A stretch of DNA of 25,669 bases, from the IMG/VR virus record IMGVR_UViG_3300027754_000391, positions 1-25,669 of that record; one strand, given 5' to 3'. How positions within the stretch are numbered: position 1 is the stretch's first letter; the number at the start of each line of letters is the position of its first letter. This document shows, in pieces, positions 1 through 24,791 of the stretch. The notes beneath the pieces were generated by a model. That model was given only the letters and a program-made list of their open reading frames with translations, had not been told where the DNA came from and did no database searches. Origin of the DNA: a virus. Both the position numbers and the translations under genes were made by a program.

Positions 1-222
1 ATCCTGATTTGCCGCTATTTGTAACAGCAACTGTTTAATCTCTTGCATATCTTCTTCTAGTTTGTTCAATCGAGCTTTGTCTTCAGTCTTTTCTATTTGT
101 TGTCTTTTTGCAAGCTCACGTTTCATATAATACTCATTTAGACCATTTCTATCTGTATTTAGAATGGCCTTAGAATCAGTATCTCTAACGAATGGTGTAT
201 CATTAACTTGTACTAGTGGCAT
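1..222 (-). CDS. Small coiled-coil protein, partial (3' end outside window)
   Basis: The reading frame opens with ATG at 222-220 and stays open for 74 codons to the left edge, so the C-terminus is missing. The start follows the DUF4815 gene stop by one base, with a GGAG Shine-Dalgarno sequence six bases upstream of the ATG, placed inside the last codons of that gene. The N-terminus reads MPLVQVNDTPFVRD, followed by an SKAILNTDRNGLNEYY stretch. From about residue 34 it is a highly charged, Lys/Glu/Gln-rich helix with leucines at heptad-like spacing (KLEEDMQEIKQLLLQI), so a coiled coil is likely. Small proteins of this style follow the large baseplate protein in some marine T4-like phages, but I do not know a function. 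An accessory baseplate or fibre-linking role is inferred from position only. Confidence 0.75.
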   Translation of the reverse strand, partial: MPLVQVNDTPFVRDTDSKAILNTDRNGLNEYYMKRELAKRQQIEKTEDKARLNKLEEDMQEIKQLLLQIAANQD

Positions 223-19760: not shown

Positions 19761-20339
19761 ATGGCATATCTTTTAGACAGAATAAATCAGTCCTTGCAAA
19801 AAGAAGGACTAACACCTCGCACAAATAAAGCGAGAACATGGCTTCGTGCCAAAATTTCAGACTTGAATCCATCAAGACAAAACTTAATGACGGATCGTCA
19901 ACGATTAAGAGATAGTACTATTATTGGCAATATGTACTTCTACTTTTACGATCCAAAAACAAAGAATTCGTTGCCATACTACGATAGGTTTCCTTTGGTA
20001 CTCCCAATAGAACAATACCCAGACGGTTTTCTAGGATTGAATTTACATTACATTCATCCAAAGCAACGAATACTTTTGTTAGATAAGTTGAGTCAATATG
20101 CTTCAGATAGTCGTTATGACAAGAACACAAGATTGAAATTGAGTTATGCAGCTTTATCTTCTGCATCAAAGGCATTCGAAGCACAACCATGTATTAAAAG
20201 ATATTTGTTCTCTCATGTACAGTCTAGATTCTTACAGATATCTGCTGATGAATGGGACATAGCGTGTTTGTTGCCAATGGAAAGTTTTGTTGGTGCAAGT
20301 ACAAGTAAAGTATACTCAGATTCTAGGAAAAAATTCTAA
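19761..20339 (+). CDS. Conserved T4-type protein of unknown function (192 aa)
   Basis: I recognise this as a type common in T4-like phages but cannot name it with confidence. The N-terminal 50 residues are basic (TPRTNKARTWLRAKI, DRQRLRD). The core has MYFYFYDPKTKNSLPYYDRF then PLVLPIE and GFLGLNLHYIHPKQR (about 58-105), a helical middle, and a conserved C-terminal CIKRYLFSHVQSRFLQI plus DEWDIACLLPMESFVGAST. There is no membrane segment or signal peptide. The basic, aromatic composition and its place between head completion gp4 and tube initiator gp54 suggest a DNA- or neck-related virion or packaging role. That is inference. I checked it against what I remember of T4 gp2 and gp3 and saw no convincing match. 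No Shine-Dalgarno is present; a CATAAATA lies four bases upstream. Its stop overlaps the gp54 start (TAATG). Confidence 0.88.
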   Translation: MAYLLDRINQSLQKEGLTPRTNKARTWLRAKISDLNPSRQNLMTDRQRLRDSTIIGNMYFYFYDPKTKNSLPYYDRFPLVLPIEQYPDGFLGLNLHYIHPKQRILLLDKLSQYASDSRYDKNTRLKLSYAALSSASKAFEAQPCIKRYLFSHVQSRFLQISADEWDIACLLPMESFVGASTSKVYSDSRKKF

Positions 20340-21121
20340 TGTCATTTTCACCGCAATTATTCTTAGCTAATGTTAAAGCTAAAGACGGTTTAGCTAGACC
20401 ATGTCGCTATGAAGTTATACTTCCAATTCCACAATATATCAATGATTTTGTATCATCAAGTCTTATGGAAAAAATATTAAATGCACCAAATGCATTTTTT
20501 ACAGATATTACAGATGCAATTAAAAATTTATTTGGTGCGACTGGTGAAAAACAAGATCCACAATCAAAAACAGCTAATGCTTCTATGTCAAGATATTTGG
20601 CATTACAATGTGAGTCTGCTGAGTTGCCAGGAAGAACAATACAAGCTCAAGATGTGAAAATATATGGTCCAACTTTTAAAGTACCTTTTCAAACACAGTT
20701 CCAAGAAACAACATTAACATTTTTATGTACTAATGAATTCTATGAGAGAAAGTTGTTTGATAATTGGTTGGAATGTATTATGCCTTTAGATACAAACAAT
20801 TTAAGATTTGCTAGAGGTGAAAGTACTAGATATTTAACTAATATTAAAATCATTCAGTATGATGATTTTATCAAACAAATATATGCAATAGAATTGATGG
20901 ATGCTTTTCCAATATCAATCTCATCTCAGCCATTAAGTTGGACTGATGACGGATTTCACAGAGTTACAGTTCAATTTGCATTTCAAAAAACTAGAATCGT
21001 ATATGATGGTCAATATGATTTAGCAGCTGCAGCTACGGCCTTATTTGGAGTAGCAGGTTCAAGATTATTCGATAAGGCACAAAGTTCAATTGCAAGTGCT
21101 ATCGGAAAAATTATTTTTTAA
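20339..21121 (+). CDS. 54: Baseplate tail tube initiator gp54
   Basis: gp54 forms the ring on gp48 from which gp19 tail tube polymerises, and shares the gp19 fold. The core is visible as LQCESAELPGRTIQAQDVKI (about 85-104), YGPTFKVPFQTQFQETTLTF, LCTNEFYERKLFDNWLECIM, and YLTNIKIIQYDDFIKQIYAI then ELMDAFPISI. The last block, LSWTDDGFHRVTVQFAFQKT, is the closing strand of the tube fold. It is 260 residues (T4 gp54 320; gp19 163). The N-terminal insertion and C-terminal Ala/Gly tail fit gp54 better than gp19. The neighbours (hub assembly gene and tape measure) also fit. The start is coupled to the upstream stop (TAATG), with AGGA about eleven bases upstream. Confidence 0.8.
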   Translation: MSFSPQLFLANVKAKDGLARPCRYEVILPIPQYINDFVSSSLMEKILNAPNAFFTDITDAIKNLFGATGEKQDPQSKTANASMSRYLALQCESAELPGRTIQAQDVKIYGPTFKVPFQTQFQETTLTFLCTNEFYERKLFDNWLECIMPLDTNNLRFARGESTRYLTNIKIIQYDDFIKQIYAIELMDAFPISISSQPLSWTDDGFHRVTVQFAFQKTRIVYDGQYDLAAAATALFGVAGSRLFDKAQSSIASAIGKIIF

Positions 21122-21138: not shown

Positions 21139-21870
21139 ATGGGTTTACCAAAACTTGACACGCCAATTTATGAAACAACATTAATTTCAACAGGCAAAAA
21201 AATTAAATTTAGACCGTTTCTTGTAAAAGAACAAAAACTATTTTTAATGGCTTCTCAATCAGAAGATGCAAAAGAAGTTGTAAGTACAATCAAACAAGTA
21301 TTATCTAATTGTATATTGGATGATATTGACATTAATAGTTTACCAACTTTTGATTTGGAACATTTGTTTGTTCAGTTAAGGGCTAAATCTGTTGGTGAAG
21401 TTGTTAATCTTAGATATTCGTGTAATAACAATGTAGAAGACAAAGATGGTGGAACTAAAGTGTGTGGTGGAACAGTAAAGATTGATTTAAATCTTTTAGA
21501 AATTAAACCAACTATAGACCCAACACACTCAAGTAAAATTGAATTGTCTGCAAAAATGGGTATTGTTATGAAATATCCAAACTTTGATATTGTAGAAAAA
21601 TTGAATATACAAACGCAGGCTGAATTATTAAATTTAGTAACTGCTTGTATTGATTACATTTATGATGCGGAACAAATTTATCATGCAAAAGATGTTAGTG
21701 CAGATGAATTAAATGAATTCATTGAAGAAATGCAACAATCAGATTTAGAAAAAATTCAAAAGTTTTTTGAAACAATGCCACGATTACAAACTAAACATGA
21801 TTTTAAATGTGTAAAATGTGGATATCAAGAAAATATTAGTATCGAAGGAATTCAAAATTTTTTCGGGTAA
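21139..21870 (+). CDS. 26: gp26-like baseplate hub assembly protein (zero-frame product)
   Basis: This 243-residue protein belongs to the family I know as T4 baseplate hub assembly protein (gp26-like). It probably acts as an assembly chaperone for the hub or tape measure and may not remain in the virion. Features: an N-terminal beta region (ETTLISTGKKIKFRPFLVKE, about 12-31), a helical part with KLFLMASQSED, and a probable zinc site from Cys95, Cys109, Cys224 and Cys227 (CGG and CVKCGY). The ending SIEGIQNFF is typical. A strong GAGGA lies seven bases before the ATG. The last codons contain the slippery sequence T TTT TTC followed by GGG TAA. An alternative -1 product continues for 64 residues. 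This arrangement mirrors tail chaperone genes upstream of tape measures in other phages. The exact T4 counterpart name is less certain than the role. Confidence 0.8.
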   Translation: MGLPKLDTPIYETTLISTGKKIKFRPFLVKEQKLFLMASQSEDAKEVVSTIKQVLSNCILDDIDINSLPTFDLEHLFVQLRAKSVGEVVNLRYSCNNNVEDKDGGTKVCGGTVKIDLNLLEIKPTIDPTHSSKIELSAKMGIVMKYPNFDIVEKLNIQTQAELLNLVTACIDYIYDAEQIYHAKDVSADELNEFIEEMQQSDLEKIQKFFETMPRLQTKHDFKCVKCGYQENISIEGIQNFFG

Positions 21871-21978
21871 GTCTTTCCCACGATAGTTTGGGTAATTATT
21901 ATGAAACGAATTTTGCTTTGATGCACCATCACAAGTATAGTTTGACTGAATTGGATAATATGTTACCTTGGGAAAGAC
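21858..21978 (+). promoter_or_regulatory. Programmed -1 frameshift signal (slippery site plus long-range stem)
   Basis: The heptamer T TTT TTC at 21858-21864 fits X XXY YYZ in the gp26 frame, with tandem Phe codons. GGG TAA follows (stop 21868-21870). Six bases after the heptamer, GTCTTTCCCA (21871-21880) is perfectly complementary to TGGGAAAGAC (21969-21978). That gives a possible 10-bp stem with an 88-base loop, at the spacing usual for stimulatory structures. Competing smaller hairpins using the same CCC run exist (with GGG 21865-21867 or GGG 21890-21892). That frameshifting occurs is inferred, not measured. Confidence 0.75.
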
Positions 21979-22058
21979 AAGTTTATATTGATATGTTGGT
22001 GAATTTTTTAGAAGCAGAAAAAGAACGATTAAAAGCTCAACAGCAAGCGAGAAAATAA
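21864..22058 (+). CDS. -1 frame extension of gp26-like protein (64 aa, frameshift product)
   Basis: The -1 frame is open from a TAG near 21838 through to TAA at 22056-22058, which abuts the tape-measure ATG. A slip on the Phe-Phe codons would join residue 242 of the gp26-like protein to this 64-residue tail, making 306 residues. The tail reads SHDSLGNYYETNFALMHHHK, then YSLTELDNMLPWERQVYIDM and LVNFLEAEKERLKAQQQ. It is a compact helical, protein-like sequence with a charged C-terminal helix, and the style is familiar from marine T4-like phages next to gp26. The first ATG in this frame (21921) comes only after the start of the protein-like part, and TTG 21888 has no Shine-Dalgarno. Independent initiation is therefore unattractive. 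By analogy with lambda gpGT, the tail could bind the tape measure or tube protein. Confidence 0.75.
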   Translation, partial: RVSLSHDSLGNYYETNFALMHHHKYSLTELDNMLPWERQVYIDMLVNFLEAEKERLKAQQQARK

Positions 22059-24791
22059 ATGGCAGATAAAAAGTCCAGATTAGCAGAAATTTACAAGAGT
22101 GAAAAGACCACCGGTGGTGGTTTAACATCAACTTTGGGTAAAAGATTTAAAGAAAAGTTTGATCCTAGACAGATGTTTAATCAACAAGGTTTCATGGCTG
22201 CTCTTTTGCCTTCAATCTTTAAAGCTTATAAAGCACCAACACTATCATCAAAATTATCTCCAGCATTAAGTCCTACTGCAAGTAGTGGAGTTAGTGGACT
22301 ATCGAATGAAAAGCTTGATATTTTAATAGCGCAATCAAAAGACATTAAAATAAATTCCACAATTGTCGCAAAAAATTCTATGTCTAATAATGCAATGGCA
22401 AGAGACATGAATTTAATGAGACAGAATATATTTCAACTTGTTAAATTAAATAAAGGAGAACCAACAAATAAAGCTGACATGTTTTTTAAACATGCAGGTA
22501 AAAGAGATAAAGAATACAAATCGAAATTCAAAAAAGAAAGTAAAGTAGCTAATAACACAGCACCTACAAAAACTGGCGATACTGGAAAATCAGAAGGTCT
22601 TTTAGGTGTTGGGGGTGCATTAGGTGGTGCATTGGGTGGTTTAAGTAAGGGTATTGGAATAGCATCTAAACTTGGTGGTCTTGGGCTTGGACTTGCCGCA
22701 TTCTTAACTGCCTTGGGTGGCGCTGCTTGGGCTATAGATAAACTTGGTGGTATGTCTGGATTAAAAGATGTGTTAACTAATTTAGCTGAAGGCCTTGGTG
22801 CATTTAGTGGCGGAAGTTTAGTTGCACTTGGTGCGTTATTTGCTGGAAGTATGTTGTTTGGTGGTGGAACAAAAGGACTCAATATAGCAGTAGTTGGTGT
22901 TGGTATAGCAGGATTTTTAACTGCATTAGGTGCCGCTGGAGCTCTCGTTGATGCAATGGGTGGAAGTGGTGGCATTAAAACTTTATTAACAGATTTAGCT
23001 GAAGGTCTTGGTGCGTTTAGTGGCGGAAGTTTAGTTGCATTAGGTTCTTTATTTGCAGCTGGTGCTATATTTGGTGCTACTGGATTAGCAGGAAAAACAG
23101 CATTAGGAATTGGAGCTATGGGTGTTGGTATTGGCGCATTTTTACTTGCATTAGGTGGCGCTGCGGCCATTATTGATTTGTTTGGTGGTGGACCAAAACT
23201 TAAAGATTTATTACTTAATGTAGCTGAAGGCCTTGGTGCATTTAGTAATGGTAGTTTAATTGCATTAGGTTCTTTATTTGCAGCTGGTGCTATATTTGGT
23301 TCCACCGGACTAGCAGGACCATCTGCACTAGGAATCGGAGCTATGGGTGTTGGTATTGGCGCATTTTTACTTGCATTGGGCGGTGCTGCAGCCGTTATTG
23401 ATTTGTTTGGTGGTGGACCAAAACTTAAAGATTTATTAATTAATTTAGCTGAAGGTCTCGGGGGATTTAGTGGACTTGATGGTATGCACTTAGGAAAATT
23501 AGCTCTTGCAATTCCAACTTTTGGTGCTGCTATGTTAGCATTTTTTAGTTCTGCTGGTATTGGTGGCATAGTAAATTCACTTGCCGGTGGTATGAAAGGA
23601 TTAATTGATTTTATTTTTGGTAATGAAAAGAAAAGTCCAATGCAAAAACTTTCTGAAGATTTGCAGTTATTTCAAAATATTAATGGAGATAATTTATCTA
23701 AAATAGGCCAAGGTATGAAAGACTTGGCATCTGGAATGTTAGGTCTTGCTAAGTTAACAGATGAAGATTTAGCAAAAGTTTCCAAAGCCTCTGTTCTTGC
23801 GAAAACTATGGGTGGAACAGGTGGTGTTCCACCCTCATCAGTAGCACCAGCACCTACAGGAACAACTACACAAGCAGCATCAGATGCTAGAGCGTCAGCA
23901 GCAGCAACTGATCCAAGAAGAACTGATATTCCTCAAACATCGCCAACTCCATCTAAAGGTGGATCATCAACAACACCATCAGGTGGGGGGAAAAATCCTT
24001 TATTAGATATGATAGCACAAGGTGAATCTTCTGGTGCTGGTGGTTATAATGCGATGAATCAAGGGACACCAGGTGGAGGACCAGTTATAGGTTCTGGTGA
24101 TTCACAAAAAATTATTCAAAAGAAATTAACAGATATGACTGTTGGTGAAATAATGGATAAAGGTGCAAAACCAAATGATGATGCAGCTAAGAGAAAAGAA
24201 AATGGATTAATTTTTGCAGCAGGTAGATATCAAATTATACCAAAAACACTAGAAGGTTTGGTTAAACAAGGTGTTGTATCTAAAGAAGATAAGTTTAATG
24301 AAGAAACACAAGATAAATTAGGAATGGCTTTAATAAATGGAACAGGAGCAACAAAATTAGCTGAAGGTGGTAATTATGAAGAAGCTCAAAACGCACTCGC
24401 AAAAGTTTTTGCTTCTGTTCCTCTTGCCACAGATATTGGTAATAAAAAAGCAGGACAATCTTTTTATCAAGCTCCTGGCCAAAATCACGGTAATTCTAAA
24501 TTAGATGTTAGAGGTGCATTAATGGCATCTGTAAGCACTTCATCACCGAATCAATCTGCTGCTACTTTAGTACCAAATGCACCTTCATCAGCAACAACAT
24601 TAGCTGCAGCTACAACAGCTGTTTCACAAGAAAAAATGACTTTAGCTTCAGCTGCACCAGTTGTTAATAATATTACTAATAATAATGTTAATAATTCAAC
24701 AAGCGGTGGTGGTAGTGGTTCATCAGCACCATCTACAGCCTCTGTCTATGATGATTTATTTGCTAAACTTGTAGAAAGAGCTCTTGCATAA
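22059..24791 (+). CDS. 29: Tape-measure protein with lysozyme-like domain (gp29 position)
   Basis: This 910-residue protein follows the gp26-like gene and takes the gp29 place: it sets tail length and is released first on infection. Residues 1-160 are basic and helical (KSRLAEIYKSEK; FKEKFDPRQMF). Residues about 185-510 are Gly/Ala-rich hydrophobic helices, arranged in tandem repeats of 71-75 residues, each with an AEGLGAFS anchor. They could insert into the host membrane. A Ser/Thr/Pro linker (about 590-645) follows. Residues about 648-805 look like a muramidase domain: LLDMIAQGESSGAGGYNAMN with a likely catalytic Glu656, MTVGEIMDKG, AAGRYQIIPKTLEGLV (about 720-735) and NEETQDKLGMALI. The C-terminus has an Asn-rich segment and ends LFAKLVERALA. 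Its ATG abuts the -1 frame stop (TAAATG). T4 gp29 is 590 residues and has no such domain. The gp29 label rests on position. Confidence 0.85.
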   Translation: MADKKSRLAEIYKSEKTTGGGLTSTLGKRFKEKFDPRQMFNQQGFMAALLPSIFKAYKAPTLSSKLSPALSPTASSGVSGLSNEKLDILIAQSKDIKINSTIVAKNSMSNNAMARDMNLMRQNIFQLVKLNKGEPTNKADMFFKHAGKRDKEYKSKFKKESKVANNTAPTKTGDTGKSEGLLGVGGALGGALGGLSKGIGIASKLGGLGLGLAAFLTALGGAAWAIDKLGGMSGLKDVLTNLAEGLGAFSGGSLVALGALFAGSMLFGGGTKGLNIAVVGVGIAGFLTALGAAGALVDAMGGSGGIKTLLTDLAEGLGAFSGGSLVALGSLFAAGAIFGATGLAGKTALGIGAMGVGIGAFLLALGGAAAIIDLFGGGPKLKDLLLNVAEGLGAFSNGSLIALGSLFAAGAIFGSTGLAGPSALGIGAMGVGIGAFLLALGGAAAVIDLFGGGPKLKDLLINLAEGLGGFSGLDGMHLGKLALAIPTFGAAMLAFFSSAGIGGIVNSLAGGMKGLIDFIFGNEKKSPMQKLSEDLQLFQNINGDNLSKIGQGMKDLASGMLGLAKLTDEDLAKVSKASVLAKTMGGTGGVPPSSVAPAPTGTTTQAASDARASAAATDPRRTDIPQTSPTPSKGGSSTTPSGGGKNPLLDMIAQGESSGAGGYNAMNQGTPGGGPVIGSGDSQKIIQKKLTDMTVGEIMDKGAKPNDDAAKRKENGLIFAAGRYQIIPKTLEGLVKQGVVSKEDKFNEETQDKLGMALINGTGATKLAEGGNYEEAQNALAKVFASVPLATDIGNKKAGQSFYQAPGQNHGNSKLDVRGALMASVSTSSPNQSAATLVPNAPSSATTLAAATTAVSQEKMTLASAAPVVNNITNNNVNNSTSGGGSGSSAPSTASVYDDLFAKLVERALA
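22690..23475 (+). repeat. Tandem 213/225-bp coding repeats in the tape-measure gene
   Basis: The anchor GCTGAAGG (AEG codons) starts at 22785, 22998, 23223 and, as GCTGAAGG again, 23448. The spacings are 213, 225 and 225 bases (71, 75, 75 codons). The third and fourth units are nearly identical in DNA: runs such as GGTTCTTTATTTGCAGCTGG recur at 23043 and 23268, and GAGCTATGGGTGTTGGTATT recurs 225 bases later. The first unit has diverged more. Together they encode Gly/Ala-rich hydrophobic helices. Confidence 0.9.

Follow-up and report, generated by a model that had tools for sequence, protein, structure and literature searches.

Frameshifting in the tail chaperone genes of phages is known, and in the available parts of the papers that treat it the stimulators are hardly described (PMC5009743, PMC3037559, PMC3004832, PMC12846349, PMC10885494, PMC10448857). 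The chaperones of T4-like phages, made either by frameshifting or from a separate short gene and a fused copy, were described by Vladimirov, Gautam and Davidson (2022, Virology 566:9), according to the portions of PMC12846349 and PMC10885494 that cite this work. Because of that description, as relayed by the two citing papers, neither the frameshift nor the T4 duplication is new. In the same citing passages, no downstream RNA structure is mentioned for the 2022 study, whereas the locus described here has a downstream stem. A full-text literature search found no report of a stem at the gp26-gp51 junction; Vladimirov et al. (2022) lay outside its coverage and may mention one.

As an element, a stimulatory stem is of a known kind, and several described systems resemble the present locus in part. 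The lambda G/GT type shares with it a short protein with a −1 extended form and a place 3′ of the tail tube gene and 5′ of a tape-measure-sized gene. A covarying long-range stem and a Shine-Dalgarno (SD)-like element flank the site studied here; no such stimulator is seen at lambda-type sites in the available part of PMC5009743. For the IS911 three-way junction and for barley yellow dwarf virus, the same part of that source describes stimulatory pairing with remote 3′ sequence or a branched loop; here, in contrast, there is a single conserved 10-bp stem, and no second pairing or conserved inner helix was found. Escherichia coli dnaX is alike in having an SD-like element upstream, a slippery heptamer and a downstream stem at short spacing. 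It differs in that its stem-loop is local, whereas the arms here are 88 bases apart, and in that its shift shortens the product, whereas this one lengthens it.

The DNA analysed here (the window, 25,669 bases in its full length) is the virus record of a T4-like myovirus. An earlier note had drawn attention to a long-range stem downstream of a slippery heptamer in it, and we followed this stem through the wider family.

Materials and Methods

Eighty IMG/VR loci were collected by gp26 protein patterns. A pattern search of viral contigs with Leu-Ser-His (LSH) after the shift fixed and silent bases free yielded at least 120 stretches, and a second search, with the heptamer and Pro-Trp-Glu-Arg fixed and arm 1 free, also yielded at least 120. 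Among the 313 sequences examined, 301 had an ungapped junction and 12 were excluded (contig ends, L027 with a deletion, phages phiM9 and Cr30 with shifted spacing, and a few others). Clustering at 95% identity gave 239 representatives. Set U comprised the 151 representatives from loci gathered without a constraint on arm 1, and the LSH set the 103 nonredundant relatives encoding Leu-Ser-His among the matches listed. Positions are counted from h, the first base of the heptamer (21858 in the window).

In the blind scan, all 8128 ten-pair downstream helices were compared, with codons permuted among sequences sharing the residue. Pagel tests were run on a FastTree protein tree with 102 leaves, and 43 third positions were compared. 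An independent covariation counter was applied to 56 sequences with less than 80% identity.

Results

Gene layout of the junction

The gp26-like gene of the window (21139..21870, + strand; 243 aa, 0 frame) matched PF12322 (T4_baseplate, E = 1.8e-62) and phrog_150 (E = 4.6e-70), and its product is probably the short form of the tail assembly chaperone. The tail tube protein gene (20339..21121, + strand; phrog_45, E = 1.7e-31) adjoins it on the 5′ side. Near the 3′-end of the gp26-like gene stands the slippery heptamer T_TTT_TTC (21858..21864, + strand), with an SD-like GAAGGA 8 nt before it (21844..21849, + strand) and the six-base spacer GGGTAA after it (21865..21870, + strand); the spacer contains the 0-frame stop TAA (21868-21870). 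The −1 frame holds a 64-aa gp51-like extension (21864..22058, + strand), which matched phrog_634 ("baseplate hub assembly catalyst", E = 2.9e-28) and would be the C-terminal part of the long chaperone form.

The AlphaFold model of the chaperone candidate had a pLDDT of 86.3. Foldseek returned the HK97 chaperone 2ob9 at rank 6 only (E = 0.95, prob = 0.57), a weak match, and a PDB sequence search found no relative. The two proteins would act as a short and a long chaperone, a reading that draws on homology and, through its citations elsewhere, on the 2022 paper.

Downstream, a 910-aa ORF in the position of the tape measure gene (22059..24791, + strand) had no tape measure match by sequence. Pfam and NCBIfam profile searches with this ORF gave no match, and its sole PHROG match (phrog_90, residues 640-860 only) was C-terminal and endolysin-like; the product is possibly a tape measure carrying a lytic domain.

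Conservation of the slippery site and the −1 extension

The heptamer, with a stop one codon on, was present in 79 of the 80 gp26-pattern loci, and the remaining one (L038) ends before the site. The −1 frame encoded the gp51 part, at an unchanged offset, in 78 of the 80; the other two are L038 and L009, the contig of the latter ending just past the site. The heptamer was followed by one sense codon and then the stop in 115 of 117 representatives, a spacing that is forced by the LSH search pattern and free in the gp26-pattern loci and the named phages. Stop-codon readthrough was also considered and ruled out, as the conserved extension sits in the −1 frame.

In 12 of 18 named phages, a −1 extension came after TTTTTT and a C, T or G; these were cyanophages, Vibrio CZ01, Aeromonas G2 and phages of Pelagibacter, Methylophilales, Stenotrophomonas, Sinorhizobium and Caulobacter. 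Five carried a −1 gp51-like extension after another site (Ackermannviridae Bue1, SFP10 and Zahir; Vibrio D492 and VPALA), and T4 had no −1 extension. The slip site was ATTTTC or CTTTTC in L317, L318, L319, L321 and L322 (Ackermannviridae and some Vibrio phages), where the gp51-like −1 extension was unannotated or partly annotated. In S-WAM1 and Aeromonas phage vB_AdhaM_G2 (L315, L316), the gp51 extension was without any annotation.

T4 encodes gp51 in a gene of its own, of which the N-terminal 201 residues matched PF12322 (E = 3.9e-52) and the full length matched phrog_150. It looks like a fused long copy beside a short one, which would replace the frameshift. At L091:2303-3729, T4 gp26 and gp51 both matched PF12322, with gp51 on the opposite strand.

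Public records mostly annotate gp51 as a gene of its own, and stop-start overlaps (TAATG, for example) occur in the −1 frame of some phages; gp51 could accordingly be translated on its own, by re-initiation once gp26 has stopped and with no frameshift. However, 97 of 105 LSH representatives (window included) had no ATG, GTG or TTG up to and including residue 5 of the −1 ORF, so that separate initiation fails to explain the conserved −1 start. In addition, TTT-TTC was near-invariant, being kept in 79 of the 80 loci, although TTC accounts for only 27% of the Phe codons elsewhere in gp26. We consider re-initiation very unlikely and frameshifting the better account of the junction.

The stem in the window

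The 5′ arm GTCTTTCCCA (21871..21880, + strand) and the 3′ arm TGGGAAAGAC (21969..21978, + strand; Trp-Glu-Arg codons in the −1 frame) form a perfect 10-bp complement at exactly the coordinates given in the earlier note. The stem starts six bases 3′ of T_TTT_TTC and encloses a loop of 88 bases (21881..21968, + strand), both as claimed there. A chance stem had been called improbable, and this was borne out by an expectation of roughly 0.1-0.5%. Perfect 10-bp stems within 150 nt started at 16 of 25,509 positions on each strand of the window, which corresponds to a chance of approximately 0.3% for the five allowed spacers. The exact 10 pairs arose in 0.13% of 200,000 synonymous recodings of the −1 frame, and any perfect 10-bp stem with a spacer of 5-9 arose in 0.47% of 20,000 such recodings.

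Folding of 21865-21990, suggested earlier as a check, gave a minimum-free-energy (MFE) structure that includes exactly this stem (−33.5 kcal/mol; z = −3.36 vs. 200 dinucleotide shuffles). Most of the 88-base loop is paired inside itself in the window by an inner helix (21890-21902 with 21955-21968), which was absent from the conserved helices of the relatives. An inner hairpin spotted by eye in the nearest loci (CAAACTA/TAGTTTG) was not among the covarying helices. An Rfam search of the window gave no match. The stem had been proposed as a long-range or pseudoknot-type stimulator: the long-range pairing is supported by covariation, and a pseudoknot showed no sign, as no second helix covaried within the scanned range h+6..h+185 in the 103 LSH representatives. 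The suggestion that the fold may switch through alternative hairpins found no counterpart among the relatives, which gave no sign of a conserved switch.

Covariation of the stem

In the 103 LSH representatives, the blind scan placed the stem first of 8128 helices by observed pairs (8.97 of 10, z = 9.9), and the register of the stem (i+j = 133) filled the top six places by z. The stem was also top by z in set U (z = 6.1; 151 representatives), where it was fifth by observed pairs. The 120 non-LSH members of U gave no support to the stem (6.17 of 10 pairs, rank 385 by z). At least 9 of the 10 long-stem pairs were formed in 33 of the 151 U representatives, compared with 0, 0, 0 and 1 of 151 at slid registers. 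The long stem is a property of one large group, and the cultured Pelagibacter phage Mosig and Methylophilales phage Melnitz each have 10 of 10 stem pairs.

Silent third bases co-change in the stem (CTT/GAA with CTC/GAG). The Leu third base at h+17 and the Glu third base at h+116 were TA in 56 and CG in 29 of 102 sequences, and positions h+14/h+119 were CG in 54 and TA in 25 of 102. On the tree, h+17/h+116 ranked first of 43 (Pagel LR = 61.9; next best, 10.9). Positions h+14/h+119 ranked first of 43 as well (LR = 24.4), but less clearly so because the next best LR was 18.9.

With the independent counter (n = 56), 91.1% of cells were paired, compared with 86.1 ± 0.6% in shuffled and at most 61.1% in slid alignments, and the covariation score was 0.199 vs. 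0.113 (0 of 500 shuffles). Three of its five measures agreed with the stem and two were neutral: both-side-changed pairs and further pair types were not above shuffles (120 and 193 of 500, respectively). The pair h+20/h+113 was mismatched in 12 of the 56 sequences. The swap test held in two separately sampled subsets (n = 31 and n = 74; 0 of 2000 each). For the alignment of these 56 sequences, RNAalifold called no structure of any kind, which counts against the stem; we guess that a 10-bp helix is outweighed in the energy model by the long variable loop. A blind mutual-information scan, run with neither a tree nor codon control, mainly picked up upstream protein columns and was uninformative on the stem.

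The arms could match by chance and be kept only for the encoded Leu-Ser-His and Trp-Glu-Arg, given that arm 2 encodes a conserved Trp-Glu-Arg and that arm 1 is lost where relatives encode other residues. The silent covariation in both arms, with its first rank on the tree, and the difference between the true and the slid registers speak against such a coincidence, which we regard as extremely unlikely. Because synonymous positions covary, the arms are not kept solely for these residues. The earlier note had named a lack of covariation in heptamer-keeping relatives as the result that would refute the stem; these relatives showed compensatory synonymous changes in both arms.

Folding energy and alternative structures in related phages

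In all 103 LSH representatives, the folding energy was lower than the average for synonymous codon shuffles of the same sequence (mean difference, −8.65 kcal/mol), compared with 64 of 102 for a control region inside gp26 (mean, −1.55 kcal/mol). At least 8 of the 10 stem pairs were present in the MFE fold of 82 of the 103 and not in that of the other 21. Mean differences from synonymous shuffles were −6.27 kcal/mol in the LxH group (26 of 27 lower), −5.87 kcal/mol in the M.HE group (16 of 16), −4.48 kcal/mol in the MxH group (27 of 33), −2.23 kcal/mol in the FxH group (5 of 5) and −4.93 kcal/mol in the other sequences outside the named groups (9 of 12). The xxY freshwater clade showed no excess structure (mean, −0.78 kcal/mol; 16 of 27 lower than synonymous shuffles). 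The xxY loci (L019, L030, L032, L012 and others) are near the group of the window and retain the heptamer. Many arm-1 variants without compensation were found in the nearest 80 loci; an early reading of these loci against the stem was true of the freshwater xxY clade and was overturned by the wider family.

In the M.HE group (P-SSM2-type cyanophages, n = 16; L083, L219, L222, L227, L231 and L273 among the loci), a local hairpin was formed by h+12..22 and h+32..42, with 10-11 of 11 pairs in each sequence. An Ala codon in this group has T, A or G as its silent third base, which mostly matched the second base of codon 9 (a Glu, Val or Ala codon), and the protein residue may therefore follow the RNA. 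A local hairpin of at least 10 pairs was present in 23 of the 239 representatives. Set U was divided into 33 representatives with the long-range stem, 23 with the local hairpin and 95 with neither. When the arm h+12..24 was compared with any downstream partner, 47 of 151 sequences were individually significant, vs. 12, 13 and 7 for three control arms. A third, mid-distance partner is suggested in a few sequences. In L084, L217 and L290, which have ALMH or SLMH after the shift, a mid-distance stem with the FALMQ codons approximately 35 bases on is possible.

The upstream Shine-Dalgarno-like element

The SD-like motif GAGGGA is enriched through silent codon choice. In raw counts with no correction for phylogeny, the Glu codon at h−14 was GAG in 73 of 121 sequences, compared with 25% of the Glu codons in the rest of gp26 in these loci, and the next Gly codon was GGA or GGG in 90 of 150, compared with 38% elsewhere (likewise uncorrected). 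A G-ending Leu codon often preceded the Glu codon, resulting in GGAGGGA in many relatives. The GAAGGA of the window is a weaker version of GAGGGA.

Discussion

We consider it highly probable that selection maintains the 10-bp long-range stem as an RNA structure stimulating −1 frameshifting at T_TTT_TTC. A dual stimulator like that of dnaX fits the junction because of the six-base position of the stem, the silent covariation, the existence of a second stem type and the SD-like element; from what the sequences suggest, the stem and the SD-like element would both raise frameshifting. Ribosomes reading gp26 would arrive at UUU-UUC with the base of the stem six bases on, where it would occupy the mRNA entry and slow translocation. 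The upstream GAAGGA may pair with 16S rRNA and exert a backward pull, as in dnaX. A fraction of the ribosomes would slip to UUU-UUU and read 64 more codons, producing gp26-gp51 as the long form, and the remaining ribosomes would terminate one codon later, producing gp26 as the short form.

A real stem could also serve another purpose: it might delay termination or re-initiation, shield the mRNA or take part in its processing, or adjust how the following gene is translated, and its 5′ arm does directly abut the 0-frame stop codon. However, it is the distance to the heptamer that is fixed: Pelagibacter phage Mosig has its stop 8 codons downstream, and the placing of the stem relative to the heptamer is unchanged. 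Moreover, the different stem of another clade begins one base earlier, as expected of a stimulator. We therefore find these other functions unlikely, and a role in frameshifting remains our preferred reading of the stem.

The best reading of the related sites is that the 3′ partner of the stem turns over between clades, as comparison of the junctions suggests. The exchange of partners is partly shown, the partner being a local hairpin arm in the P-SSM2 type, the gp51 Trp-Glu-Arg codons in the group of the window and, apparently, a mid-distance sequence in a few others. A wider proposal, which we offer tentatively and think unlikely, is that the position of the 5′ arm varies by no more than a base, the 3′ partner is repeatedly exchanged and the long form feeds back on its own production via ribosome traffic. 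Only shifted ribosomes would traverse the 3′ arm, and each would therefore open the stem for those behind it. Speculatively, the stem could hold the long form low by such feedback.

Because silent double changes keep the stem across many T4-like lineages, the ratio of short to long form looks actively tuned. The related sites, some with the long stem, some with the local hairpin and some where no structure is detectable, constitute a natural series for the contributions of the stem, the loop length and the SD-like element.
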